Source: a virus
DNA length: 64,000 bases
Direction: 5' to 3' (one strand)
IMG/VR virus record: IMGVR_UViG_3300025326_000023
Span: 1-64,000 of that record
Every line of letters begins with the position of its first letter. Positions within the stretch are counted from its first letter, which is position 1. The position numbers and the translations under genes are program-made. Under the pieces are notes generated by a model. That model had not been told where the DNA came from and did no database searches. It saw nothing but the letters and a program-made list of their open reading frames with translations. This document shows, one piece after another, positions 5,498-62,594 of the stretch.

Positions 5498-6172
5498 ATG
5501 GCCAGCGATCAGGAGGATCTCGATCGGGCCGATCTGGATCTGGAGCAGGAACTGCTCTCCCACCAGGACTGCAGCAAGTGCGGGCGGAGCCTGCCGCTGA
5601 CCGAGCAGCACTGGTACCGGGACAACCGCCGCCAGAACGGCTTCAAGCGGATCTGCAAGAGCTGCTTCAACGGGCAGCAGGAGGCGCTGCGGGACCGCTC
5701 GCTGGAAGATCGTATCGCTTGCCTGGACGCCAAGATGATTGCCCGCCTGGAGCGGATGGTGGCAATCGAGCAGCCGGGTATCCCGCACCTGGCCAAGTTC
5801 TTCGAGACGGCGGTGCGGGCCTGCGGCGGCGTGGACGGGCTGGTCCAGCACATGATGGCCGGGATGCTGATGTCCAAAGCCGGCGGTGAGACCCGGCGCA
5901 AGTACGTGCAGATGATTTGGGAGGCCAGCCAGAAGCTGTCCGAGATGGGGCTGGCCAAGGTGCCGGTGGACCTCTTGAGCGACGAGGACCTGGAGGCGGA
6001 GATCCAGAAACGGCTGGCGGCGCTCCGCGCGTCGGAAGGCGCGGATGCCGAGGGGGACGAGGCGGCCGAGGCGAGCGCGGAATCCGACGATGAGCTCGGC
6101 GGCGAGCCGGGAGAGGAATTGGACGACCCTCTGCTATTGGCCCTGCGGGAAGGCCAGGAGGATGCCGCGTGA
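5498..6172 (+). CDS. Terminase small subunit (probable)
   Basis: The 224-residue protein overlaps the start of the large terminase gene by 4 bp (GTGA) and is therefore the likely small subunit, which binds packaging DNA and hands it to the motor. An N-terminal cysteine cluster, CSKCGRSLP...RICKSC (residues about 24-58), looks like a zinc-binding or HNH-like knuckle. The middle is helical and the C-terminus is very acidic. The zinc motif is not part of the classic TerS fold, so a packaging-associated HNH-like cofactor is the alternative. I chose ATG 5498, preceded by GGAGA, over a longer frame that runs back through the terminator. Confidence 0.6.
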   Translation: MASDQEDLDRADLDLEQELLSHQDCSKCGRSLPLTEQHWYRDNRRQNGFKRICKSCFNGQQEALRDRSLEDRIACLDAKMIARLERMVAIEQPGIPHLAKFFETAVRACGGVDGLVQHMMAGMLMSKAGGETRRKYVQMIWEASQKLSEMGLAKVPVDLLSDEDLEAEIQKRLAALRASEGADAEGDEAAEASAESDDELGGEPGEELDDPLLLALREGQEDAA

Positions 6173-9126
6173 GCACGTCGTTTCCGGATCCGCGGCGCGG
6201 GCAATGGACCAGCCAGGTGGCTCAGGACGAGCTGCGCGAGTTGGTCCAGGAGGTTAAGTCCCGCAAAATCGAATCGCTGCGGTTGTACGAGCCGCTGTCC
6301 TACCAGGACGCCTACCATCGCTGCCGGGCCAAGGAAGCGATTCTGGTGAAACCAAACCAGGTGGGAGGCCCACAGAAAAAAGACACGCCCGTCTTGACGC
6401 CCACAGGCTGGCGGCGTTTGGGCGATCTGCAGGTGGGCGATGAAGTGTTTGGCGGCGACGGCAAGGTGGCGCGGGTACTGAGCGTGACCCAGCAGGGATG
6501 GCTGCCGATTTTCAATCTCGCGTTTGACGACGAGACTTTGACCAACTGCGCAGAGAATCACTTTTGGAAGTGCCAACTCAAGGCCGCCGAACGATTTCAC
6601 TCCAACCGCTGTTTCAAGAAGGATAAGTGGAGTGTCTATTCCCTGCGCGAGATTCGGGAGCATGGTGGGGACGATCCGATTCCCCGCGACCGGGCGGTGA
6701 TCCCGGTGGCCTCGGTCGAGTTCCCAGAGCAGCCCGTGCCTGTTGCGCCCTATACGCTGGGGGTTCTGTTGGGCGATGGCTGCATTTGCCACGACACGGC
6801 GAGTTTCACCAGTGAAGACGCTGCCATTTGCGATGAGATTCTGGGCGAACTGCCCGCCGGGATGGCGGTTCGCGTGCAGAAGTCGACGGATAACGGCAAG
6901 GCATCCTGCTATCACCTTACCAAAGGCGAGAACCTGCTGAATCCGGTGATTCAGGGATTGCGCGTGCTGGGTCTGATGGGCCTCAAGTCAGTGCAAAAGT
7001 TCATCCCCGCCTGCTACCTCTTAAACTCCCGCTCGGTTCGTCTGGCGGTGCTGCAGGGGCTGATGGACACGGACGGGTACTGCACCGAAAACGGCGTCCC
7101 CTTTTACTACTCGTGCTCGCCGAGGCTGGCGCAGGACGTGATGTTTCTTGTCCGGTCGTTGGGCGGCAAGGCCAAGCTGCGATGGAAAGAAGCGTTCATC
7201 ACGAAGAAGCACAAGCCCCGCGGCAGGCCGCCGGTAACCCTGAATGATTACGGCAAGTCGCAGCAGCGGCTGTTTGAGGAGCCGCGCCGCTGTCTGCACA
7301 TGGCGGAGGTGCAATTCTCGCTGCCTCGCGATGTCCGCATTTTCCGTTTGGAACGTAAGCAATCTCGCCGCGAAGCGTTTCAGGGAGAGTTGACGACCGG
7401 CCGGGTTCTGCAAACGATCCGGCCCGCCGGCAATGCCGAATGCGTGTGCATCGGAGTCGATTCGCCGGATCATACCTACGTCACCGAAGACTTCATTGTC
7501 ACGCACAATTCATTGGCCCACTTTGTCGAAATCGCCCGCGCCCTGACGGGGCAGGATCCGTATGGCAAGTACCCCAAGCGGGACGGTTTGGCGGTTTGCG
7601 TGGCGTATGGCGAGCGGCACATCGGCACGGTGATCCACCGTTACCTGTTTCGCTGGGGCGCGTTCAAGATGATCCGGGACTTGGGGAGCGGAGACTGGCG
7701 CACCTATCGGCCTTGGCCGGCGGAGCGGCTGGTGGACGGCAAGCCGGGCGACTTGGAGCGGGCGACCGAAGCGCAGCCGGCCCCGCCGCTGATCCCCAAG
7801 CGGTTCATCCAGGGCAAGCTGGCCTGGCAGAAGCGGGCCTTGAACATCTTTCTGCGGGCCAGCTTCACCACGGGCTGGGAGCTGTACACGGGCAACAGCG
7901 AGGGCGATCCGTCGCATCTGCAGGGTTTGACGAACGTCTACCTGTACGCGTTCGACGAGGACGTGGCCCAGGGCGGCTGGTACGAGGAAGCCGTGCAGCG
8001 GACCACCAGCGTGAACGGTTTGTTGCGCTGGAACGCCATGCCGCACGCCCGCACGGACGACATTCTGAACCTGATCCGCCGGGCGGAGGAGGAAGAGGAA
8101 AAGGACGACCCGCAGACGGTGGCGATCCGGGTCCATCACCAGGACGAGAACCCCTACATCCCGGAAGCAGCCAAGGCCCAGAACGTGCGGATCGCGATGT
8201 CGATGGGCGAGGACGTCTACCGCAAGCGGATCCTGGGCGAGTTGACCAACGATTCGGTGCTGATGTACCCCGGCTTCAACAAGCAGGTGCACGGGGCGGA
8301 GCGGCGGCTGACGGAGAAGGATTTGGCCGAGGAGCAGACGGGGCGGCGCTTCCGGTCGGCCTTGCAGCGGGCCTACACCGACAATGGCGGGCGCCCGCCG
8401 GACGACTGGACGCGCTACGTGATTGTGGATCCGGGCTTCAACGTCTGCGCGGCAACGTTTATCGCCACGCCGCCGGAAAGCCTGGGCGACTGGCGGGTGC
8501 AGTACGGCGAACTGTACTTGCGCAACGCCACGGCCCGGCTCTTTGCCAGCGAATTGAAGCAGAAGGTCGGCGAGCAGCCGATCCGCGATTTCCTGATCGA
8601 CATGCACGGCGGCCGTCTGCGCGGGGCGCAGGGCATCCAGTGGGTGCAGGAGTACCAGGAGGAGATTGAGAAGCTGCGGGTCGAGTGCGAGATCCGCGGT
8701 TCGCGATTCGGGGCGGGCTGCGACAACATCAAGCTGCGAGAGGAGCGGCTGCGCAAGTGGCTGGAGATCCGCGGCGGCTGCGAGGCGTGGGCGCAATCGC
8801 CGACGCTCTACATCGACCTGAACCGCTGCCCGAACACCGTGCGGGAGATGTTGACCTTCCGCAAGAAGACGATCCGGCAGGGCGGCATGTCCGTCACGAT
8901 CGACGAAGCCAACCGGCGGCAGCCCTGCCATGCTTTGGAATGTCTCGAGATGGCGGCTGCCCACGGCTGCCCGTATGTGAAGCCCAAACCGAGAGTAGTA
9001 GCCGATGAGCCGATCGACCGGTGGATGGCCGAGCGGAAGCATCGGGAGCGGAAGCGCCGGTATAAACACTGGGGCTTGGCCGGCCAGCCCACCATCACGT
9101 TAGGTCCTCAAGGAGCGTTTGGATGA
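6169..9126 (+). CDS. terL: Terminase large subunit, intein-containing
   Basis: This gene encodes a 985-residue precursor; without the 380-residue intein (residues 68-447) the packaging ATPase-nuclease is 605 residues, a normal size. After splicing, the ATP-binding loop reads KPNQVGG|SLAHF. This is a deviant Walker A with lysine at the first position, as in phage lambda gpA. Walker B is probably VYLYAFDED. The C-terminal RNase H-like nuclease has YVIVDPGFN and later acidic clusters (DFLIDMHGG). The GTG start at 6169 overlaps the small-subunit stop, with AGGAGG about 10 nt before it. The enzyme cuts concatemers and pumps DNA through the portal. It can act only after the intein splices itself out, since the intein splits the ATPase loop. 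Confidence 0.9.
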   Translation: MSTSFPDPRRGQWTSQVAQDELRELVQEVKSRKIESLRLYEPLSYQDAYHRCRAKEAILVKPNQVGGPQKKDTPVLTPTGWRRLGDLQVGDEVFGGDGKVARVLSVTQQGWLPIFNLAFDDETLTNCAENHFWKCQLKAAERFHSNRCFKKDKWSVYSLREIREHGGDDPIPRDRAVIPVASVEFPEQPVPVAPYTLGVLLGDGCICHDTASFTSEDAAICDEILGELPAGMAVRVQKSTDNGKASCYHLTKGENLLNPVIQGLRVLGLMGLKSVQKFIPACYLLNSRSVRLAVLQGLMDTDGYCTENGVPFYYSCSPRLAQDVMFLVRSLGGKAKLRWKEAFITKKHKPRGRPPVTLNDYGKSQQRLFEEPRRCLHMAEVQFSLPRDVRIFRLERKQSRREAFQGELTTGRVLQTIRPAGNAECVCIGVDSPDHTYVTEDFIVTHNSLAHFVEIARALTGQDPYGKYPKRDGLAVCVAYGERHIGTVIHRYLFRWGAFKMIRDLGSGDWRTYRPWPAERLVDGKPGDLERATEAQPAPPLIPKRFIQGKLAWQKRALNIFLRASFTTGWELYTGNSEGDPSHLQGLTNVYLYAFDEDVAQGGWYEEAVQRTTSVNGLLRWNAMPHARTDDILNLIRRAEEEEEKDDPQTVAIRVHHQDENPYIPEAAKAQNVRIAMSMGEDVYRKRILGELTNDSVLMYPGFNKQVHGAERRLTEKDLAEEQTGRRFRSALQRAYTDNGGRPPDDWTRYVIVDPGFNVCAATFIATPPESLGDWRVQYGELYLRNATARLFASELKQKVGEQPIRDFLIDMHGGRLRGAQGIQWVQEYQEEIEKLRVECEIRGSRFGAGCDNIKLREERLRKWLEIRGGCEAWAQSPTLYIDLNRCPNTVREMLTFRKKTIRQGGMSVTIDEANRRQPCHALECLEMAAAHGCPYVKPKPRVVADEPIDRWMAERKHRERKRRYKHWGLAGQPTITLGPQGAFG
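6370..7509 (+). other. Class 3-like intein with LAGLIDADG endonuclease in TerL
   Basis: This is a 380-residue in-frame insertion. Its splicing N-block is PQKKDTPVLTPTGWRRLGDL, and it ends DFIVTHN with Ser at +1. Residue 1 is Pro, not Cys or Ser, so the usual first acyl shift cannot occur. The residues that define class 3 inteins are present: Trp two residues after the block B His (ENHFW, His64/Trp66) and Cys360 in block F (CVCIGV). LAGLIDADG-type motifs (LGVLLGDG near residue 136 and VLQGLMDTDG) mark a homing endonuclease. The insertion lies inside the ATP-binding loop, the most conserved site of the gene. Confidence 0.9.
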
Positions 9127-15360: not shown

Positions 15361-15377
15361 TTCCGAGGGCTTTGGTT

Positions 15378-18300
15378 ATGGCGATGGACGTGCTGGACCA
15401 ATTGCTGAAGCGGCGGATGGCGCTGCAGTTGCCGCGGCTGGCGGGGGCGTCGGCGTTGGGGCTGGAGCCGCTTCCTGGTTTGGACGAGCAGGAAGACGAG
15501 CCGCCCTTGAGCGCCGAAGAGGAAGAGGGCCTGGCCCGCAAGCTGGCTCGGCGCGGGATCGGCGGGCTGTCCTGGGTCGGCGAGACCCTGGGCAAGCCGG
15601 GCGCGGCGGTCACGGGCACGTTGTCGGGGATCACCGATTTGTTGCAGGGCCGCACGCCGCGCTGGGGTGGGGGCCTGTTGAACCTGCTGCCGCTGACGGA
15701 CACCTTCAAGTTCACCGATCCCGATCAGCGCGTGTACAGTCGCGACTTGCTGGAGAAGTGGGGGGCGCTCAAGCCCAACAAGCCCGGCCTGGACGTGGGC
15801 GACGTGCTGGGGTTCGGCCTGGACTTGGCCCTGGACCCGTTGACGTATGCCACGTTCGGCGCTTCGGCGCTGGGCAAGGCGGGGCAGGTGGCCAAGGCGG
15901 CGGGCGTGCTGGACGACGCCATGCGGGCGGCGGCGCGAGGGGTATCCGTCAACCGGCCTGTCGTGCAGCGGATGCTCAAGGGCGCGCAGGCGCCGGCGGG
16001 ATGGCTGGGCAAGGCCAAGCTGGGCAAGCGCCAGTTCCGCATGAACGCCACCCTGGACGACGTGCTGGAGCACTACCGCACGTTGGGTCCGGCGGCTGAG
16101 GCGGAGGCCGTGAAGAAACTGCAGACGGCGGCGCAGGCGGCAGGGACCACGCTGGACGAATTGCGCGAGGCCCGGCTGGGCGGCCTGATGGGCTTCGGCC
16201 TGCCGCCGCTGCCGGGGCTGGGTGGCCGCGGGCCGCTATTCACGACGAACCTGGGGGCGGCGGGCGAGAAGTACGCCAAGGGGGCGGATTTCGTAGGCCA
16301 GGCGATGAAGGCTTCGGGCTTGGGCCGCTGGACGCGGCGCGCCTTCCAGGCCAGCGTGCGGGGCCGGGCCACGGAGTTGGGGCAGGACTCCGCCCAGCAC
16401 GCCGCACCGCTCTACGAAGCCACGCTGGCCCGCCACCAGCCGCGCTTGCTGCAAGCGGCCGACGTGCTGGACGCCGACGACGTGTTGCGCAAGCGCGGGC
16501 GCGAGCAGCGGATGATCGCCGAAGGCGTGCCCAACGCGCCGCCGCCGGTCAGCCCCAACGAACAGCAGGCGGTCGAGTTGGTGCGGGACCTGAGCCCGCG
16601 GGTGCTGCAGGAGCAGCGGGACGCCGGCTGGGCGATCGACGCCCTGGAAGACCCCTTCGCCAAGTACCACTCGCACCGCGGGCTGGGCAGCGACGCCACC
16701 AAGTCCGTGGACTTGTCGCCCTCGGGCGGGATCGAGACCGGCCCGGCGATCCGACGCGAGATGATGCTGCGCGGCCATAAGGGCGGCACCACGGGGATTG
16801 ACGACACGTTCCGGGACCCGAAGTTCGAGCAGATCGCCCAGGACCCGAATTTCCCCACGGAGATTGAGAAGATCAAAGAGGCGGAGGACTACCTGCGCAA
16901 CAGCGCGCACACGCCGAACATCCAGGACTGGATGCCCAAGGTGGACGATGACGGCTGGATGCTGTACGACCGGGCGGTGCTCCAGAACGGCCAGGTGGTC
17001 ATGACTCCTCGCGGGAACGTCAAGGTGCGCAAGGGCGATCCGGTGCGGCTGCGGATGGGCCGGGCCAAGTCGCTGCTGCAGCAGCAGGTGGCCGGCACCA
17101 ACAACCCGGTGCCCAGCATTTTCGAGCCGCACCAGATCAGCCGCACGGTCAGCCGCCGGGGCCAACAGGTGGCGGAAGTGCTGGTGCCGCGGCACGGCTC
17201 CCGGCTTCGGCAATACGCCGAGGCGATCATCCGCAGCCAGGAGTATCGCCAGACCGGGATGTTCACGAACAACTTCGTCACGGACGCCAGCAACATGGTC
17301 AACTGGCACGCGGGGCGGCTGGAGCGGGCGGAGTTCACCGCGGACCTGCTCGGCCGCTCGCTGCCCAACGCCCCGGACGGCGTGACGGTGATGAGCGGCG
17401 GCATCCGCAAGGGCAAGGCGCTGGGGGAGGCCGAGAACCTGCAGGTGGAGAAGGTGCTGGAAAGCCAGGGGTTTGATTTCCCGACCATTGGCAAGCGGAT
17501 CATCGAGCGGCGGGCGGCCAATGGGTTGATCGCCAAGCCCGTCACGCCGGACGAGTGGGCCAAGGCCCTCCGCGATCTGCGCCAGGAGTACATCTCGCCG
17601 GACTACTACCGCGAGTTGGTGCCACAGAAAGCGGTGACGCCGGAGGGCGGGGTGCTGGAAAAAGCTGGCAACGTGGCGCGCAGCAACCTGGCCTTGTTCA
17701 AGGCTGGCGTCTTGACCTGGCCGGCCCGCTACGCCCGCGACATCATGAGCGGCATCGAGCGGCTGACCGAGCGGGGCATGGCCGGGCCGGGGGATCTGTG
17801 GAATGCCCGGAAACTGTTCCAGGGCCAGAGCGTGCGGGGGGGGCTGGAGCAGATCCCGGCCGTCCAGGACATTTTGCGGGACGTGCTGAAGGTGCCCAAC
17901 CCGGCTCGCGCCACGCCGGAGGAAACCAGCCGGGCGATGCGGCTCCTGTACAGCACCTACCATTCACCCGTGCACCGCATCGAAAGCGAATTGACCGGCG
18001 TGCCGCGCCTGGAAGGCGGGCTGGAGCAGGTCACCCAGGGCCTGGTGGGGCGGCAGGAGCGGGGCCTATTGGGCGGGATCGGCAACCTGCTGGCCACCGG
18101 CGTGGGGGCGCGGCGCGAACCGGGCCTGTCCTGGCTGCAGTCCCTGAAGCCCTGGCGGGTGCGCGGCTGGCACGAAGGCTGGACCGGCAAGCCGCTGCAG
18201 AACCCGGAGTTCGCGCTGGCCGCGGCCGGCGACATCGCGGGCCAGGCTACCGACAACATCCCACGCATGGCCGGCTTCATCAATCTGCTGAAGAAGGGCG

Positions 18301-20210
18301 TCGATCCGCAGGAGGCGATGCGGCAAGTCAATTTGTCGCTGGTCAGCTACAACCCGCGAGATTACACCGCGCTGGAACGGAAGCTGAAACAGCTACTACC
18401 TTTTTACAGCTTTTGCATGCCGGTGGACCATCAGATTCTCTCGCAGGATGGTTGGAAGACCTACGATCAACTGGCCGTTGGCGAACCTGTGTTGACGCTG
18501 AATCACGAGACTGGCACGCTGGAATGGCAGCCCGTTCAGGCGATCAACGTTTTTCCCCATGATGGGCCCCTGTTGGCATGGCAGATCAGCCGCAAACACA
18601 AAAAAGTCCGATTTGAATTCACATCGAATCATCGTTGGCCGATTCTTACAGAAACGGGGACATTTGCCTACTGCCTAGCGTCCGGTGAATCCCGGCGCGG
18701 CCGTCGCCACGTCAAAAGGCGATGGCGACTGGGGGGCGACCTGAGACAACATGATCGCATTCCCTGCACAGGCGACTTTCAGACGAAAGAGGCCAGTATC
18801 CTCAATGTGCGTCTGGCGAAATTGCTCGGTTGGATCGTCACCGATGGATTTTTCCGTCGGCGCCCCAGGGGGGAACGCACGTATGCGGAGGCCAGGATCT
18901 ATCAGAGTCCTCACAAGCACCTTCAGGAATTGATCGAACTGACTGGCTCCGTGCCGTGCAAGCCGCATCCGATCAGTGGCGTGGTGGCACTCAATGTCAA
19001 GATCGACGATTTGCGAGAGATCATGAAGGTCTTCCAGACGAAGGCCGATTTATGCCGCATTGTGTGTCGGCTCTCTCGCGAGGCTGCTGAAGCCATGTGG
19101 GACGCGATGTTCAAAGCCGAAGGCTCGACATCCGCGGCTGGCAATATGCACTTTGCGCAGAGCCCGGAAATCAATCCTGAAGTCCTGGATGCGTTTCAAA
19201 TCCTTTGCCTGATGACGGGCAGGACGGCCCATTTGTCCTCGGTGGGATGTTTCGTCAAGCGATCTAAATGCTGGTATGTACACGATCGCATCACGTCTTT
19301 TGACTATGAGGGCTTAGTTTGGTGTCCCACGACGGCCAACGGTACATGGATTGCTCGCCATGATGGGGCAGTCACGATCACGGGAAATTCATCGCGTCAG
19401 ATCCCCTACGTGATGCAGGAGCTTACCAACCGGCCGGGCGGGCGGCTGGGGATGCTGATCAAGGGCAGTTCGCGGGCCAGGGAGCCGGACGCGATGGCGC
19501 CCGATTACGTGTCCAGCACGATGTCGGTGCCGATCGGCGCGTCGCCGGAGGGCGGGCGGCGGTACTTGACCAGCTTCGGGCTGATGCACGAGGACCCGAT
19601 GGCCTGGGCCAAGTTGATGCAGGGCGACATGCGGGGGTTCCTGACGGAGCTGGCCTCGCGAGCCCGGCCCGAGTTGAAAGGCGCGACCGAGTACGCCACC
19701 AACCGGATCTTCTTCCAGTCGGGTCCCACCGGGCCGCGGGACGCCAGCGACGCCGATCCGCTGCTGGGCCGGCTGTGGGCCAACCTCCGGGACATCAAGA
19801 CGGGCCAGAAGACGAAGAAGGTGTTGCCGCTGTTCGGCTCGCTGGGCCTGGAGATGGCAGCGGCCAACTCGCCGCCGTCGCGGCTCTTGACCACGGCCCG
19901 CATGGTCACCGACCCCGACAAGTACAAGAGCGTTTGGCCGCTGGCGCTCCAGCTTCTCACGGGCGCCCGCGTCACGCGGGTCTCGCCGGGCGCCGAGGAA
20001 GCCATCCTGCGCGAGACGGCCGGGCAGTTGATGAAGCGGATGGGCGGGGCGGAGTTCGTGCGGTCCTACATCAAGCCGGAGGTGCTGGCGCAGATGGACC
20101 CCGAATCGCGGGCGCTGGGCGAGCAACTCAACGCCGCCCAGCGGATCTGGAGCCGGCGGCAGCGGGAGCGGAAGAAGGCGGAGGAAAAGGGGCAGAGGGC
20201 GAAGGTGTAG
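15378..20210 (+). CDS. Large internal virion/ejection-type protein, intein-containing
   Basis: This gene encodes a 1610-residue precursor; removing the 325-residue intein leaves about 1285 residues. It begins with two ATG codons (15378 and 15384). The N-terminal third has glycine-rich hydrophobic segments (RRGIGGLSWVGETLGKPGAAVTG; VLGFGLDLALDPLTYATFG), then long helical and charged regions. The joined extein LLPFYSF|SSRQIPYVMQEL is a smooth, conserved-looking motif. Such long proteins at the end of head modules are usually carried in the virion and ejected with DNA. The protein at 51260-53065 begins with a similar Gly-rich hydrophobic module, so the two may be related. No lysozyme or transglycosylase motif is visible. 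Its C-terminus is basic (RRQRERKKAEEKGQRAKV). Confidence 0.7.
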   Translation: MAMDVLDQLLKRRMALQLPRLAGASALGLEPLPGLDEQEDEPPLSAEEEEGLARKLARRGIGGLSWVGETLGKPGAAVTGTLSGITDLLQGRTPRWGGGLLNLLPLTDTFKFTDPDQRVYSRDLLEKWGALKPNKPGLDVGDVLGFGLDLALDPLTYATFGASALGKAGQVAKAAGVLDDAMRAAARGVSVNRPVVQRMLKGAQAPAGWLGKAKLGKRQFRMNATLDDVLEHYRTLGPAAEAEAVKKLQTAAQAAGTTLDELREARLGGLMGFGLPPLPGLGGRGPLFTTNLGAAGEKYAKGADFVGQAMKASGLGRWTRRAFQASVRGRATELGQDSAQHAAPLYEATLARHQPRLLQAADVLDADDVLRKRGREQRMIAEGVPNAPPPVSPNEQQAVELVRDLSPRVLQEQRDAGWAIDALEDPFAKYHSHRGLGSDATKSVDLSPSGGIETGPAIRREMMLRGHKGGTTGIDDTFRDPKFEQIAQDPNFPTEIEKIKEAEDYLRNSAHTPNIQDWMPKVDDDGWMLYDRAVLQNGQVVMTPRGNVKVRKGDPVRLRMGRAKSLLQQQVAGTNNPVPSIFEPHQISRTVSRRGQQVAEVLVPRHGSRLRQYAEAIIRSQEYRQTGMFTNNFVTDASNMVNWHAGRLERAEFTADLLGRSLPNAPDGVTVMSGGIRKGKALGEAENLQVEKVLESQGFDFPTIGKRIIERRAANGLIAKPVTPDEWAKALRDLRQEYISPDYYRELVPQKAVTPEGGVLEKAGNVARSNLALFKAGVLTWPARYARDIMSGIERLTERGMAGPGDLWNARKLFQGQSVRGGLEQIPAVQDILRDVLKVPNPARATPEETSRAMRLLYSTYHSPVHRIESELTGVPRLEGGLEQVTQGLVGRQERGLLGGIGNLLATGVGARREPGLSWLQSLKPWRVRGWHEGWTGKPLQNPEFALAAAGDIAGQATDNIPRMAGFINLLKKGVDPQEAMRQVNLSLVSYNPRDYTALERKLKQLLPFYSFCMPVDHQILSQDGWKTYDQLAVGEPVLTLNHETGTLEWQPVQAINVFPHDGPLLAWQISRKHKKVRFEFTSNHRWPILTETGTFAYCLASGESRRGRRHVKRRWRLGGDLRQHDRIPCTGDFQTKEASILNVRLAKLLGWIVTDGFFRRRPRGERTYAEARIYQSPHKHLQELIELTGSVPCKPHPISGVVALNVKIDDLREIMKVFQTKADLCRIVCRLSREAAEAMWDAMFKAEGSTSAAGNMHFAQSPEINPEVLDAFQILCLMTGRTAHLSSVGCFVKRSKCWYVHDRITSFDYEGLVWCPTTANGTWIARHDGAVTITGNSSRQIPYVMQELTNRPGGRLGMLIKGSSRAREPDAMAPDYVSSTMSVPIGASPEGGRRYLTSFGLMHEDPMAWAKLMQGDMRGFLTELASRARPELKGATEYATNRIFFQSGPTGPRDASDADPLLGRLWANLRDIKTGQKTKKVLPLFGSLGLEMAAANSPPSRLLTTARMVTDPDKYKSVWPLALQLLTGARVTRVSPGAEEAILRETAGQLMKRMGGAEFVRSYIKPEVLAQMDPESRALGEQLNAAQRIWSRRQRERKKAEEKGQRAKV
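18414..19388 (+). other. Intein with LAGLIDADG endonuclease in the virion protein
   Basis: This is a 325-residue insertion starting CMPVDHQILSQDGWKTYDQL and ending DGAVTITGN, with Ser at +1. Block B has FEFTSNHRW (Thr and His). Block F has VWCPTTANGTWIARHDG. The penultimate residue is Gly instead of His, a variant common in inteins whose block F reads 'NGTfi.r..g.v.itGN'. LAGLIDADG-type motifs are LAKLLGWIVTDGFF and EAMWDAMFKAEG. It is a class 1 intein by its Cys1 and is unlike the TerL intein, so the two were acquired separately. Confidence 0.9.
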
Positions 20211-39271: not shown

Positions 39272-39937
39272 CTATTTGTCCGCGTAGTTCAGCCGCTCCA
39301 GCCAGGGCTGGAGCAGGCGGTTAAGCAGATCGCTGCTGGCCGGGTCGACAAAGCGGCGCCAGGTGCCGGGCTGGCCTTCGTGGACGTGGCCGGGTTCCAG
39401 CACGTCGCGCGACTCGCCGGGCTGGAGCGCCGCACAGATCTCCCGGTTGCGGTCGATGTGGCGGGCCGCCAGGATCTCAGCTTGCCGCTGGGGCGTCACT
39501 TCCCAGCCGGTCAGCGCGCTGAGCAAGCTGAAGATCTGCTGCGGCTTCTCGATCGCCGTTTCGTAGCGCAGGTGCAGCGGCAGGTGGGTCTCTTGGTACT
39601 GCTGCATGCGCCAGAGCGTGTTCAGGTAGCGGCCGGCGATCCAGTAGAGCCGTTCGCGGGGAATGACGCCCAGCCGCTCCACTTCGTCCGGGTGGCGGAA
39701 CCGCCAGTGGGAGATCACGCAATCGCGGGGATCGCGGTAGACGGATAGCACGGGCACTTGCAGGTCCAGCCACTCGTGCGTTTTGATCACGCCGTCGCCC
39801 AGGGCGTCGCCGCAGACCTGCCAGATCCATGTGGTGCCGGAGCGCTGCAAGCCGAAGCAGATCAGGCGCACGTTCTGGGCGGACAGGCCGGCGGAATCGT
39901 TGCGGACTTGGTTGGGGATGTAGGCGCTGGGGTTCAT
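39272..39937 (-). CDS. Sulfotransferase
   Basis: The 221-residue protein has the two PAPS-binding motifs of sulfotransferases: 5'-PSB loop LICFGLQRSGTTWIWQ (residues about 25-40) and 3'-PB motif VLSVYRDPRDCVISHW. It would transfer sulfate from PAPS to a glycan hydroxyl. It overlaps the FkbM-like methyltransferase gene by 4 bp and lies in the glycan block, so the likely target is the glycan made by its neighbours. ATG 39937 is used; the longer frame to 40354 is antisense-type noise. Confidence 0.85.
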   Translation of the reverse strand: MNPSAYIPNQVRNDSAGLSAQNVRLICFGLQRSGTTWIWQVCGDALGDGVIKTHEWLDLQVPVLSVYRDPRDCVISHWRFRHPDEVERLGVIPRERLYWIAGRYLNTLWRMQQYQETHLPLHLRYETAIEKPQQIFSLLSALTGWEVTPQRQAEILAARHIDRNREICAALQPGESRDVLEPGHVHEGQPGTWRRFVDPASSDLLNRLLQPWLERLNYADK

Positions 39938-40617
39938 GGGTTGGTCCAAATCTGATTGTAGGTGGTGGTGGCGCGGAGGCGGTAGCCCTGTTCGCCCAGC
40001 AGGTGCTTCCAGGCCCCGGACAGATCGAGGTTGGTGCCGTACTGCCGGTGTTCGATGACCAGGCATTCCGGGTGGAACGTCGTCCAGTCGTTGCCCTTCA
40101 GCACTTGGGGCTCGCTTCCCTCCACGTCGATGCTGCACAAGCGGCAGCCGGCCCGGATGGTCGGGTAGCGGGCCAGCAAACCGGCCAGCGTCTCGGTCTC
40201 CACGTAGGCCACCGCCTGTTCGTCGATGGGCCAATCCGGGCGCAGGCTGCTGAGACATCGGCAGATCCGCAGGCGGGCGTAGCCGCTGGCGTCGCTGACC
40301 GCCACGGGGGCCAGGAAGTCTCCGGGGCGCTGGCGCAGGATCGAGTACCAGCATTCGGCCAGCGGTTCGACCACGAGGCCGCGCCAGCCGCGCTGGTAGA
40401 ACGACCAGGTGTTGCTGCAGTCGATGGCGTGGCCGGCGCCGATGTCGACGTACAGCCCGTCGCCGGGCAGGAGTTGGGCCAGGATCTCGTCCTCCGCCCC
40501 TTGGCTGCCGCGGCAGGTCACGGGCGGCAGCGAGCGGTTCAGCCAGCGGCCCAGGCCGAGCAGTTCGGAGCCGGATTGCTGCAGGGCGTCGGCGGTGATC
40601 AGTCCAGGGTCAGCCAT
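39934..40617 (-). CDS. FkbM-family methyltransferase
   Basis: The 227-residue protein reads DGLYVDIGAGHAIDCSNTWSFYQRGWRGLVVEPLAECWYSILRQRP, then CSIDVEGSEPQVLKGNDW and LVIEHRQ. The pattern GxGxxx...NTxxF...G..G..vEP and the motif 'DvEGsE..vL.G' are diagnostic of FkbM methyltransferases, which O-methylate sugars. I chose ATG 40617 (8 nt after GGAG) over 40623. It overlaps the start of the sulfotransferase gene and the stop of the fucosyltransferase gene. Confidence 0.85.
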   Translation of the reverse strand: MADPGLITADALQQSGSELLGLGRWLNRSLPPVTCRGSQGAEDEILAQLLPGDGLYVDIGAGHAIDCSNTWSFYQRGWRGLVVEPLAECWYSILRQRPGDFLAPVAVSDASGYARLRICRCLSSLRPDWPIDEQAVAYVETETLAGLLARYPTIRAGCRLCSIDVEGSEPQVLKGNDWTTFHPECLVIEHRQYGTNLDLSGAWKHLLGEQGYRLRATTTYNQIWTNP

Positions 40618-41489: not shown

Positions 41490-41813
41490 CTACGCTCCGA
41501 GTCTTGAGGCACGCCGCGCTGGCCGGGGATGTGCGCGGGGTAACGAATCGCGCACGAGCCAATTGCTCCACAGACCGCGCAGATGGCGTTCCGCCTTCAA
41601 TTGGATTTGACGAATGCGCTCGCGGTGTACGCGAAAGATACGAGCCGTTTCTTCTAGGGTATAGGGGCCAGCGTCAGTGAGCCCATAGCGCAGTTCCAGC
41701 ACGGCACGTTCGCGGTACGACAGAAACCGTAACAATTGAGGCAGTGCCACGATGAAGTCAGGCGTGGTGTCCATTACCTTGCGTGGCACGCCGCGAATAA
41801 TCAGGCTTGACAT
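41490..41813 (-). CDS. Stand-alone sigma-70 region 4 protein
   Basis: The 107-residue protein contains one clear domain: LLRFLSYRERAVLELRYGLTDAGPYTLEETARIFRVHRERIRQIQLKAERHLRGLW, sigma-70 region 4 with its recognition helix (VHRERIRQIQ). Regions 1-3 are absent, so it cannot be a full sigma factor. It could bind -35 elements or the beta flap with host RNA polymerase, or block it, as small phage transcription factors do. Its start lies 13 bp inside the epimerase gene's end with GAGG in front. Basic residues follow at the C-terminus. Confidence 0.8.
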   Translation of the reverse strand: MSSLIIRGVPRKVMDTTPDFIVALPQLLRFLSYRERAVLELRYGLTDAGPYTLEETARIFRVHRERIRQIQLKAERHLRGLWSNWLVRDSLPRAHPRPARRASRLGA

Positions 41814-44050
41814 TTCAAGTCCTCCTGCACCTGCGACTCGATCCAGGCGTAGGTTTCGGCCAGGCCTCTGCGGAGCGGGGTGGAGGGTTGCCAGCCCAGT
41901 TCCTGCAGGATGCGGGTGTTGTCGGAATTGCGGCCCCAGACGCCCTGGGGCTTATCCAGGTCGTGGCACTTGATGACGGAGACTCCGGCGATCTCGGCCA
42001 CCAGGTCCACCAGTTTGTTGATCGTGACCAGTTCGCTGGAGCCGAGGTTGATCGGCTCGCGGATGTCGCTGGCCATGATCTTCAGGATGCCCTCGATATT
42101 GTCGCCGATCCACATGAAGGAGCGAGTGCGGGTGCCGTCGCCCCAGATGTCGATGGGGTAGGGGCCGGGGTTGCCGGATTCTTGGCCGCGGAGTTTGGCT
42201 TCGGCCACTTTACGGCAGATGGCGGCGGGGGCTTTCTCTCGCCCCCCAGTGTAGCTGCCATGGGGCCCGTAGGAATTATGGAATCTGGCCACTCTGGTTT
42301 CCAGGCCATAGTCCTCCATCCAGTGGCGGGCCAGCCGTTCGCTGAACAGTTTCTCCCAGCCGTAGCCGTCCTCGGGCATGGCGGGGTAGGCATCCTCTTC
42401 CTTGAGCGCCGGCACGTCGGGGTGGTTCTGTTTGCCGGCGGCGTAGGCGCAATTATGTACGGCAAATCCGTGCGCCGTATAGGAAGGGGCGTCCTTCACT
42501 TCTAAGTTGTACACAGTGCAATCCACCAGGAATGAGTCGACAGACAAACACCGATTGTGGATCGTTTCATCCGTAGGCGGCGGAGGCGGACAATCGTTCG
42601 TCACGCAGAGGTCGCATGCCCTCTGTCGCGACGCCTGAGAACCGACCGTGTAGAGATTATGACAGTCTACTGTTGCGCGGATGGTACGATCCGAAAGAAC
42701 TGAGGCGCGGGAGCGCATGATTTGGACGGACGTTTGAATCCCGAGCGAGAGCAGAATGGCGCGCATATCAGCAGCGAGCCGGTGCGACGCCGTGCCAATG
42801 CCAATGCTGTCAGCCGACTCGCCCGAGCGGCTCCTGCGAATCCAGCCGTCTCCTAACCACCAACCGCGGACGAGTTGCTGCCGAAAGGCGAAGGGACCCG
42901 TGAACAACTTTTCTCCCACGCATTTGGAGTAACAATCCGCTTGCGCGCTCGCGCTCTGGTAGCAGTTGTCGAGAAAGAATTGGGCCAGGAGATTGCTGCA
43001 AATGCCGACCTTACACGACTTTTGTCCCCGCGTGTTATCCCAGCGGCGGATGCGCTTGTCAGGAATTCCGAACGTTGCTCCCAGCAGTGTCCGCACGCGA
43101 TCAACCAGATTTGCTTTGCGGCCTTCAGTTCCAAAGGAAAAGAGCACCCGCTTGGATCCATGGGGGGGCGATTCGACCCATCCATCGGCCAGGAACAAGC
43201 CAACCAATTCTCCGAGGGCCGCGTCTTGGGCGACGATTTCCTTGGTGACGGGATCACAGTGCGATGGAAAATGGCCGCGGGAAAATGAATAGGGCGTTCC
43301 CAGCGAGGCGCCATGCGATGCAGCGAGCTTGTACAAAGGCTCGTTGGTTCCCGCCAGGACGGCACGGCGCAGACGAATCAGACGATGCAGGTCCATCTGA
43401 AACCTGCGAGCTGGCGCATCCAAGTTTGGGATCGGCAGTCGCAAGCGATGACCCGCGAGAGATGAGGCAGGTATCCATTGGCCGTCCGTAGTGAGAAAAC
43501 GATGATCGGGCGTGACGCACAAAGGCGGTAGCCCTGGACAATGTACAATGGACAGGGGCCCCTGGTAGCGGCGGGACATTGTGCGGGTCACCTCCGCGAG
43601 TGTTCCATCAGCGGTGACTACGCGATCGCCGACAGCAATCTCTTCGATGGGGATACTGCCCCTCGCCGTGGTCACTCTCGTTCCCGCGGGAAAACATGCC
43701 GAGCTGCTATAGAAGAACCGCTGGACGCGATTCGCGTACGCGGCCTTGAGCATCTGGGCGGAGATCAGCACGTTCATGGCGCAGTCGCACTTGTGCGTTT
43801 CGATGGTCCCGATGCCGCCCATGAAGGCGGCCAGGTTGTAGACGTGTTCGATGCCGAGGCAGCAGGCGACACATTGGGCGTAGTGGCGCAGATCCCAGGA
43901 GGACCAGTTGTCGGCGCGGATGTCGTACTGCCACCAGTCGCTGCGTCTTTTGACGTCCACCGCGCGGACTTGATGGCCGCGTTCCAGCAGGGCCTTGACG
44001 AGATGTCCGCCGATGAAGCCACCGGCGCCGGTCACGAGAGTTTGGGTCAT
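41801..44050 (-). CDS. GDP-mannose-3,5-epimerase-like enzyme, intein-containing
   Basis: The precursor has 749 residues; without the 415-residue intein (residues 119-533) the enzyme is 334 residues. It has the NAD-binding start LVTGAGGFIGGHLVKALLERGHQV of short-chain dehydrogenase/epimerase sugar enzymes, then FFYSSSA|CAYAAGKQ and GYGWEKLFSERL. SSSACxY is the active-site motif of GDP-mannose-3,5-epimerase, and YGWEK the Tyr-Lys couple. The residue after the intein is the active-site Cys. It makes GDP-L-galactose or GDP-gulose from GDP-mannose in family members. It overlaps the methyltransferase gene upstream by an ATGA. Confidence 0.9.
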   Translation of the reverse strand: MTQTLVTGAGGFIGGHLVKALLERGHQVRAVDVKRRSDWWQYDIRADNWSSWDLRHYAQCVACCLGIEHVYNLAAFMGGIGTIETHKCDCAMNVLISAQMLKAAYANRVQRFFYSSSACFPAGTRVTTARGSIPIEEIAVGDRVVTADGTLAEVTRTMSRRYQGPLSIVHCPGLPPLCVTPDHRFLTTDGQWIPASSLAGHRLRLPIPNLDAPARRFQMDLHRLIRLRRAVLAGTNEPLYKLAASHGASLGTPYSFSRGHFPSHCDPVTKEIVAQDAALGELVGLFLADGWVESPPHGSKRVLFSFGTEGRKANLVDRVRTLLGATFGIPDKRIRRWDNTRGQKSCKVGICSNLLAQFFLDNCYQSASAQADCYSKCVGEKLFTGPFAFRQQLVRGWWLGDGWIRRSRSGESADSIGIGTASHRLAADMRAILLSLGIQTSVQIMRSRASVLSDRTIRATVDCHNLYTVGSQASRQRACDLCVTNDCPPPPPTDETIHNRCLSVDSFLVDCTVYNLEVKDAPSYTAHGFAVHNCAYAAGKQNHPDVPALKEEDAYPAMPEDGYGWEKLFSERLARHWMEDYGLETRVARFHNSYGPHGSYTGGREKAPAAICRKVAEAKLRGQESGNPGPYPIDIWGDGTRTRSFMWIGDNIEGILKIMASDIREPINLGSSELVTINKLVDLVAEIAGVSVIKCHDLDKPQGVWGRNSDNTRILQELGWQPSTPLRRGLAETYAWIESQVQEDLKCQA
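42452..43696 (-). other. Class 1 intein with LAGLIDADG endonuclease in the epimerase gene
   Basis: This is a 415-residue insertion starting CFPAGTRVTTARGSIPIEEI and ending APSYTAHGFAVHN with Cys at +1. Block B has CVTPDHRFL. LAGLIDADG motifs are ELVGLFLADGWV and QLVRGWWLGDGWI. It is placed directly before the active-site Cys of the epimerase, a site under strong purifying selection. It has a Cys1 and a normal HN end, unlike the TerL intein. Confidence 0.92.
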
Positions 44051-59870: not shown

Positions 59871-62594
59871 TCATGATGCCTCCTCTTCAACTTCGTAATG
59901 CAGCCGGTCGTGGGGCAGACTGAAGTGACTGCGCTGGTCGGGCAGTTCAAATTGCATCCGGTCGTCGTCCAGGGCAAACTGGCTGCGGTCGTCCGCCAAA
60001 GCGTAGTGGCTGCGGTCGTGGGGCAGCGACAGTTCGGTGCCGGGCAGGCTGGGCGGGACCACTAATTCCGGCGCCCAGATGGTGGCCAGCGCTGAGGTGA
60101 CGGGCAGCAGCAGCGCGGTGGCGTGCAGTGCGCCGGGGGCGGGCAGGCTGGCCAGCAGCGGCAGGCACGCCAGGACGCAGGTGGTGGCGTCCTGGATGGT
60201 GGGGGCGCTCGGCGAGGCGGCCAGCGCGGTGGCGGGCAGGGCTGGCCGGCTGCCGTCGCGGATCGCCGGCGCGGGCAGCACGCTCGATACCGCAAGCGCG
60301 GGCAGGGACAGAGCGCTGGCGTCGCGGATCGCCGGGGCGGGCAGGGTCGCCGCGGCGGCCAGGGTTGGCAAGGGCAAGGCGCTATCATCGCGGATCGCGA
60401 GCGCGGGGATCGACGCCAGCGACGTCACCACCGCCAGGCCGATCACGGTGTGTGTGACATCGAAAATCGTGGGCGGCCAGACGGCGGCTTGCAGCCCGAC
60501 GGCGGGCAGCACGATGATGCTGGAGGACAGCAAGGCCGGCGCAGGCGCGAGCGCAGAGGCGGACACGACAGGCAGGATCACGAGGCTCGCATCTCGGGCG
60601 GTTGGCGCGGGCAGCGCGGCCGAGGCTGCGATGGCGGGCAGCGCGGCCAAGGTGCCATCCACGATGGCCACGGGCCGCCCTTGTGGTGGCTCCCAGCCGG
60701 CTCCGGCGTTATAGAGCAAAGCCACTTCGCCGTCGCTCAGTGCGCGGTCCCACCAGCCGAAAGATTCGATGATGTCGCAAACGCTGACAGGGGCAGCATA
60801 GGTTTTCGCGCCCAACAGGAACCGGCTGGGCGCAATCGCCTGGGGTGTTGATGTCGGCTCCGAGGCTCTGAGGATCCCATCCACCCACAATTCGTCATAG
60901 CCGTTCTGGTTCACCAGGAAGCAGACGTGATGCCAATTGGTGTCGAAAAAGCTGCTGGGCACTGACTCCCACGTGAGACTGCCCTGATAGTAGATGCCCT
61001 CGATATAGTAGTCGCCGAACGAATAGAGCAGATCCACTTCGGCATGGCGCCCGGTCGACTGGTTGCGCAGTTCGAACGCATAGGCGGCTCCGTCGTCGGA
61101 AGCGGTGATCGTGCGGGTGAACCGGTACCAGAAGGAGACAGAGAAGGCGCTGCCCGTGTCGATTCCGGGGCTGGTCGTTTTGGGCACGCGAGCGGCGGTA
61201 TTGTTGTTGTCCCAGGCGTCGCCGTTGACTCCGGGCACGTAATGCGAGAGTCCGTCAGCCGAGCTCAGCGCGAGAGCCTGCACCAGATCCGTCAGGGTTC
61301 CGTTCAAGGGCCAGAAGGCCTGCAGTCCATCGTAGAGAGTCGGTTCCAGCATGACCCCCACGCCCGTGGTGGGCAGCGACACTGCAGTGGCGTCCTGAAT
61401 CAGGGGTGAGGCGAGGGAAGCCAGGCACGCAACCGCCTGCGGAAGGATCGCAGTTCCATCAACGGCAGTCGGCTGCAAGGGGGCGCTCGCGCAGGCGATG
61501 GCGGGCAGCGTGGCCAGGGTGCCGTCCCGGATGGTTGGCGCGCCCAAGGATGCGGCGCCGGGGATGGCGGGCAGCGGCAGCAGGGTCCCGTCCAAAAGTG
61601 CCGGCTCGGGCGGGCCGGCCGAGACGGCGATGGTCGGCAGCGGCAGGGCCGTGGCGTCGCGCAGCGCGGGAGCCGGCAGGGTGGCCAGGCAGGAGACCGT
61701 GGGGCAGGCGACTGAACTGCCATCGCGGATCGCCGGCGCGGGCAGCACGCTCGATACCGCAAGCGCGGGCAGGGCCACGGTGCCGGCGTCGCGGATCGCC
61801 GGCGCGGGCAGGCTGACCGCCGCCGCCAGGGCGGGAAGTTGAATCAGGCTGGCCTGGGCTGCCGCGGCGGGCAGGTAGACCCTGCGCGGTAGCGGCAGAT
61901 AGATCCCGCAGCGCCCGGCCTGGTACAACCGCAGCACTTCCTCGGCGGTTAGGGCGCGGTTGTAGAGTTTGGCGTCGTCCCATTTGCCTTTGAGCAAATA
62001 GCCGCCCTGGGAGGCACCGATCGTCGGAGCGGAGGAGAGCGTGATCGTGCTGTCGCCAGTTTGGGTGCTGCAGGCTGCGCCGTTCTGGTAGAAGATCCAG
62101 CCATTAGCGCCCGGCTTGGAGGAGATGGTGACCAGGTGCCAGGCGCGGCGGTCCGAGAGGTTGCCCGCTCCCACGGTGACGCGACCCGCGCGAAACGTGC
62201 CGTCGTAGATATTGCCGTCGCCCCAGGTGTAGTGAGACGCGTAATCCGCTGTATTCCAAAACCAGGCGCCATTGCCGCTGCTCGGCGTATGTTCGATGAG
62301 CGAGAGCCAGAAGGAGAACGTGGCTTCGGTAGAGACCAGGGCCGAGATATTAGGCAGCGTCAGGATGCTGGTCCCATAGAATCCGCTGAAGGATTGCAGG
62401 GACCAGCGCCCCTCGGAGGTCTGCCAATGGGGCAGTCCTGCTCCGGCGGTGAGAGTGCCGCCGCGTCCTTGGCCGGTGCTGTCGGCGATCTTGGCGTTGT
62501 CGGTGTTGCCAAGGCCGGGGGCCCAGGCCCCGATCAGCCCTCGCCAGAGGCTGGGATAGCGGGATTCAGAGGCTGCGCGAGCGTACTGCGGCAT
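59871..62594 (-). CDS. LamG-domain tail fibre or adhesin with tandem repeats
   Basis: The 907-residue protein has two laminin-G/concanavalin-like domains: residues about 15-230 (TFSFWLSLIEHTPSSG, RRAWHLVTISSKPGANGWIFYQNG, AKLYNRALTAEEVLRLYQAG) and about 405-625 (SFWYRFTRTITASDD, WHHVCFLVNQNGYDELWVDG, WWDRALSDGEVALLYNAG). Such domains bind sugars. Between and after them stand about 17 copies of a 22-residue repeat (LPAPAIRDGTALPLPALAVS). The last 50 residues are repeats of the type DRSHYALADDRSQFAL. It is probably the host-binding fibre or a surface spike. Near-identical DNA blocks within the repeat region suggest recent amplification. Confidence 0.75.
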   Translation of the reverse strand: MPQYARAASESRYPSLWRGLIGAWAPGLGNTDNAKIADSTGQGRGGTLTAGAGLPHWQTSEGRWSLQSFSGFYGTSILTLPNISALVSTEATFSFWLSLIEHTPSSGNGAWFWNTADYASHYTWGDGNIYDGTFRAGRVTVGAGNLSDRRAWHLVTISSKPGANGWIFYQNGAACSTQTGDSTITLSSAPTIGASQGGYLLKGKWDDAKLYNRALTAEEVLRLYQAGRCGIYLPLPRRVYLPAAAAQASLIQLPALAAAVSLPAPAIRDAGTVALPALAVSSVLPAPAIRDGSSVACPTVSCLATLPAPALRDATALPLPTIAVSAGPPEPALLDGTLLPLPAIPGAASLGAPTIRDGTLATLPAIACASAPLQPTAVDGTAILPQAVACLASLASPLIQDATAVSLPTTGVGVMLEPTLYDGLQAFWPLNGTLTDLVQALALSSADGLSHYVPGVNGDAWDNNNTAARVPKTTSPGIDTGSAFSVSFWYRFTRTITASDDGAAYAFELRNQSTGRHAEVDLLYSFGDYYIEGIYYQGSLTWESVPSSFFDTNWHHVCFLVNQNGYDELWVDGILRASEPTSTPQAIAPSRFLLGAKTYAAPVSVCDIIESFGWWDRALSDGEVALLYNAGAGWEPPQGRPVAIVDGTLAALPAIAASAALPAPTARDASLVILPVVSASALAPAPALLSSSIIVLPAVGLQAAVWPPTIFDVTHTVIGLAVVTSLASIPALAIRDDSALPLPTLAAAATLPAPAIRDASALSLPALAVSSVLPAPAIRDGSRPALPATALAASPSAPTIQDATTCVLACLPLLASLPAPGALHATALLLPVTSALATIWAPELVVPPSLPGTELSLPHDRSHYALADDRSQFALDDDRMQFELPDQRSHFSLPHDRLHYEVEEEAS

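Follow-up and report, generated by a model that had tools for sequence, protein, structure and literature searches.

The window analysed here, a stretch of 64,000 nucleotides from a 73.7-kb virus record, carries a single long open reading frame for a large terminase subunit (TerL) that is interrupted by an intein. Its parts are listed below with window coordinates; a slash in a sequence marks a splice junction.

6169-9126, plus strand: intein-containing TerL precursor, 985 aa, a single stop-free ORF.
6169-6369, plus strand: N-extein, 67 aa, whose last seven residues, KPNQVGG, are the first seven of the Walker A motif (alignment with intein-less homologues).
6349-6369, plus strand: N-terminal part of the deviant Walker A, K1-P-N-Q-V-G-G7 (homologues KGNQVGGS in L008 and KGNQAGGS in L009; GNQVGKS in the sister group).
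6370-7509, plus strand: predicted class 3 intein, 380 aa, Pro1 to Asn380 (ORF residues 68-447), based on the WCT triplet, the junctions, class 3 DnaB inteins in the PDB, the same-site orthologues L176/L187 and L207, and a tree.
6559-6567, plus strand: block B, His64-Phe65-Trp66, with the Trp of WCT (sequence; His64 and Trp66 invariant in alignments A1 and A3).
6766-6780, plus strand: first LAGLIDADG motif, LLGDG (sequence; G135-D136-G137 invariant).
7060-7077, plus strand: second LAGLIDADG motif, LMDTDG (Pfam LAGLIDADG_3 across intein residues 223-287).
7447-7449, plus strand: Cys360, predicted block F branch-point nucleophile and the Cys of WCT (sequence; invariant together with Ile361 in alignments A1 and A3).
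7501-7509, plus strand: block G, Thr378-His379-Asn380, comprising the Thr of WCT, the penultimate His and the terminal Asn (sequence; alignments A1 and A3).
7510-9126, plus strand: C-extein, from Ser+1 (Walker A residue 8) on, with the remaining ATPase and the nuclease domains (alignment with intein-less homologues; PHROG_2).

The host protein was identified from its exteins. When the full ORF was compared with PHROG, the matches were mostly due to inteins within terminase and helicase families; the 605-aa extein alone matched PHROG_2, terminase large subunit, at E 1.9e-6. An AlphaFold model of an intein-less homologue with 50% identity (L008; pLDDT 84) had the large terminases of D6E, T4, Sf6 and HK97 as its top PDB matches, and the P74-26 terminase matched as well. 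Genes resembling those for a major capsid protein (MCP) and a portal lie nearby (PHROG). The PHROG_2 match, the homologue's model and these neighbours identify the extein as a TerL with the terminase ATPase and nuclease fold. A search of the phage collection with the spliced terminase was empty at E 0.01; Pfam gave no family at E up to 1, PDB sequences and the genome contigs gave no match, and a search for relatives with the MCP found no match. Relatives of the terminase were reached solely through the linked portal gene, which matches many viral contigs. As collection scans covered the best 80 loci each, family frequencies given below are rough; the contigs are partly redundant. The gene just before TerL (5498-6172, plus strand), in the position of a small terminase gene, has an N-terminal zinc-finger-like part that resembles the endonuclease VII and Lar-like families.

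Intein-free terminases, encoded upstream of portals in viral contigs and 34-50% identical to the extein, align unbroken across the insertion site, where they read KGNQVGGSLAGFAE (L008), KGNQAGGSLAGYAE (L009) and AGNQVGKSLAAFVE (sister group). Because these empty-site alleles read through, the intein can be placed after residue 7 and before residue 8 of the Walker A motif, as KPNQVGG/P...HN/SLAHF; its first residues are PQKKDTPVLTPTGW and its last ECVCIGVDSPDHTYVTEDFIVTHN, followed by Ser. The preliminary description had put an intein at 6370-7509 in the ATP-binding loop of TerL, with its N-junction after KPNQVGG. The open frame, the PDB, tblastn and Pfam matches and the junctions seen in intein-less homologues bear this out, and these homologues supported no Cys or Ser site elsewhere. 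An N-junction at another Cys, Ser or Thr, upstream or downstream, is ruled out by the intein-free alleles.

That last point bears on the suggestion that this is a class 1 intein with a misplaced N-junction, the real one being a Cys, Ser or Thr elsewhere. Most inteins are class 1, and relatives of the window TerL do have class 1 inteins with Cys1 in the same P-loop, at GGNR/SGKS. In the intein-less homologues, however, the N-extein ends at Gly7 and the protein continues at Ser8; the first Ser, Thr or Cys within the intein is Thr6, and with a junction there PQKKD would stay behind in the ATP loop; and residue 1 of the three orthologues is Pro, Pro and Ala. We therefore regard a class 1 intein as extremely improbable.

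The assignment to class 3 rests on a set of residues. In the literature, class 3 inteins are recognised by a first residue that is not a nucleophile, together with a Trp in B:12, a Cys in F:4, a Thr in G:5 and a nucleophile in the +1 position (PMC3196547, PMC5050341, PMC7891396). In the window intein, residue 1 is Pro and thus none of Cys, Ser or Thr; Trp66, two residues after the block B His64, occupies B:12 and is invariant in the alignments; Cys360 precedes Ile and aligns with the Cys of class 3 DnaB inteins at F:4 (CVCI, 358-361); Thr378, within VTHN (377-380), is the G:5 Thr; and the intein ends in His379-Asn380 followed by Ser+1, in keeping with a terminal His-Asn and a +1 Ser or Thr (rarely Cys). 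Since Cys360 is preceded at a distance of two residues by another cysteine, Cys358, in a CxC common to all three orthologues and some helicase inteins, the branch point is assigned to Cys360 by alignment only.

Similarity searches point to the same class. With phmmer, the intein matched the DnaB inteins 6rix, 6riy and 6bs8 in the PDB at E 9.5e-11, 2.5e-10 and 4.6e-9, while the class 1 gp41-1 intein reached only 1e-3 in the same search. We take 6rix to be MchDnaB1 and 6bs8 to be the M. smegmatis DnaB intein. By tblastn, the intein matched a phage helicase intein at 3e-49. MchDnaB1 is a class 3 intein (PMC7664689). In a 31-row tree, the window intein fell on the class 3 side of 27 rows, among phage terminase and helicase inteins, and the class 1 inteins of the same TerL family, a small sample of four, were set apart with support of 100. 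The AlphaFold model of the intein itself, built on an alignment of four sequences, had a pLDDT of 50, too low for the model to be of use.

A nucleophile-free residue 1 could also be counted toward an intein of some type other than class 3. Against this, the WCT triplet is complete, the +1 residue is Ser and the nearest relatives are class 3, and we give such a type almost no weight. Taken together, the WCT triplet, a first residue that is no nucleophile, the Ser at +1, the PDB matches and the placement in the tree support the prediction of a class 3 intein. Pro1, the Trp two residues after the block B His (HFW), Cys360 at block F and Ser+1 had all been named in the preliminary description as marks of a class 3 type, and each is present in the sequence; the full triplet, the PDB matches and the tree uphold the class it proposed, and Thr378, the third WCT residue, and a homing endonuclease can now be added. 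The latter is recognisable from its two LAGLIDADG motifs with their acidic residues, by which the intein is predicted to carry a LAGLIDADG homing endonuclease; Pfam LAGLIDADG_3 scored 25.7 bits in the intein (cutoff 22.5), and Hint_2 was weak. We are highly confident that the Walker A loop of this phage TerL is interrupted, directly after its residue 7, by a class 3 intein of full length that includes a LAGLIDADG endonuclease.

Other inteins were noticed in the window and in this TerL family. Within ORF 41801-44050, a class 1-type intein of 415 aa (42452-43696, minus strand; Cys1...HN/Cys+1), in which LAGLIDADG_3 and Hint_2 exceed the cutoff, splits an NAD-dependent epimerase/dehydratase at YSSSA/CAYAAGK. 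Genes for a sulfotransferase-domain protein (39272-40354, minus strand) and a Laminin_G_3 (lectin-like) protein (59871-62594, minus strand) are located near the epimerase. A likely class 1 intein of 325 aa (18414-19388, plus strand), with Cys1, the end ITGN/S and an endonuclease-like motif LLGWIVTDG, lies in ORF 15372-20210, which encodes a phage protein of 1612 aa that matches no family. In the TerL family, L025, L051, L060 and L072 have class 1 inteins (Cys1) at the different P-loop site GGNR/SGKS; two of the four are mini-inteins, and the other two contain an insert of unrecognised type. In L072, a further class 1 intein, which bears LAGLIDADG, interrupts the C-terminal part of the same terminase near AAQ/C...GN/CLEY.

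Two other viral lineages have an intein at the same TerL site as the window. That of L176, at KGNRVGG/PQPIDE...VTHN/S, is about 57-58% identical to the window intein, and the L187 intein is identical to it; that of L207 lies at KGNRAGG/AQPLYG...VTHN/S. These same-site inteins keep the His, Trp, Cys, Thr, His, Asn and +1 Ser, with Pro, Pro or Ala as residue 1, and the window, L176 and L207 inteins form one clade (support 98). Between the window and L176 the intein is 58% and the extein 45% identical; for the window and L207 the figures are 43% and 47%. In the terminase tree, among the matches listed, some 20 intein-free contigs lie mixed with the three intein carriers. An intein more alike than its host protein, as for the window and L176, together with intein-free alleles between carriers, would suit homing. 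The identity of the L207 intein is not above that of its extein, so vertical descent with losses would also be possible. The overall pattern fits an old insertion that was lost repeatedly, with one or more transfers of later date, as might be expected of a homing intein.

Differences at the three codon positions were 0.35, 0.27 and 0.64; third positions differ most, which implies that the frame is under protein-level constraint. This constraint and the open intein frame argue against a decayed intein that no longer splices. Such decay has a published precedent in the Arthrobacter Arth_1007 pseudogene (PMC3196547); but every catalytic residue and both acidic residues of the endonuclease are present, and terminase is an essential phage gene. 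We thus consider decay very improbable.

The Walker A motif at the insertion site is itself unusual. Among the matches listed, 35 of 150 aligned members of the TerL family read K[GAP][NQ][QR]xGG[ST] and 115 read GN[QR]xGK[ST]; a lysine occupied exactly one of positions 1 and 7 in all 150, and both or neither in none (0/150). The form with lysine 1 and Gly7 is found, for example, in L008, L109 and L206. In the TerL tree, nearly all shifted-lysine members form one clade (96) within the classical ones, the exception being L212, which stands apart on a long branch; that the lysine shifted only once was not rejected (AU p 0.2). Terminases whose P-loop begins with a lysine were reportedly described by Mitchell and Rao in 2004 (title cited in PMC5727402). 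As in the window TerL, lambda gpA has a lysine at the first P-loop position and none at the GK[ST] position. These data support reading the window motif, as first proposed for this locus, as a lambda-like deviant Walker A; in it the lysine would have moved from position 7 to position 1, with intein-less relatives reading KGNQVGGS or the classical GNQVGKS. The resemblance is one of motif only, as Pfam gave no match of the extein to the lambda gpA profile (Terminase_GpA) at E up to 1. Among the matches listed, a class 3 intein at the 7/8 junction was met only in the shifted-lysine subgroup. We doubt, nonetheless, that residence of the intein at this junction and relocation of the lysine away from it are evolutionarily linked, and consider such a link improbable.

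We propose that splicing would proceed by the class 3 route. His64, with Trp66 and Thr378, would activate Cys360, which would attack the Gly(-1)-Pro1 peptide bond to give a branched thioester; the N-extein would then pass to Ser+1, Asn380 would cyclise with the help of His379, and an O-N shift would leave the exteins joined as KPNQVGGSLAH. With 380 residues inserted in its P-loop, the precursor should not bind ATP; unspliced, it should be inactive, and packaging should therefore depend on splicing. That terminase activity would need splicing is thus a sound inference. The gene probably spreads through cleavage, by the endonuclease, of terminase alleles in related phages that lack the intein.

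Several of these features have been met before. Class 3 inteins occur in mycobacteriophage TerL (TerL1-c, -d and -e), and TerL inteins that separate Lys from Thr in the P-loop have been described (PMC5050341); 1701 class 3 inteins had been counted in 2020 (PMC7891396). In deposited phage records, K64-1, Delrey21, RcTiptonus and MetMV have class 3 inteins at GK/T of TerL, and the class 3 intein of Violet TerL starts with Pro. Precedents therefore exist for a class 3 intein in TerL, for a TerL intein in the P-loop and for Pro1 in a class 3 intein; what is new here is the terminase family and the Gly before the junction. The hosts of class 3 inteins thereby gain one environmental phage family. 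The three orthologous inteins (Pro1, Pro1 and Ala1) and about 20 intein-free alleles, among the matches listed, offer material for studying homing and splicing at Gly(-1), and closely related terminases of this family, some with their Walker A lysine at position 7 and others at position 1, offer a natural comparison of how packaging motors tolerate a moved catalytic lysine.

The TerL inteins of mycobacteriophages (TerL1-c, -d and -e) and of NelitzaMV, Violet, Delrey21, K64-1 and RcTiptonus share with the window intein the TerL host, the WCT triplet and the LAGLIDADG endonuclease; several sit at the GK/T or GK/S P-loop site, and that of Violet begins with Pro as the window's does. They differ in belonging to another TerL family, with intein identities of about 25-30%. 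With its Walker A lysine at position 1, the window TerL has Gly at -1, directly before the intein. The mycobacterial DnaB class 3 mini-inteins (6rix, 6riy and 6bs8), the top matches among solved structures, have the same WCT triplet and THN end, but their host is DnaB and the endonuclease domain is absent. Closest outside the family, at about 33-36% identity, are the GK/T inteins of SNF2-type helicases (Brevundimonas phage Papperlapapp, PhiPA3 and a Bixzunavirus helicase related to Catera Gp206), which occupy the same Walker A position and have the same block residues as the window intein, but in a helicase host and with Lys at -1.
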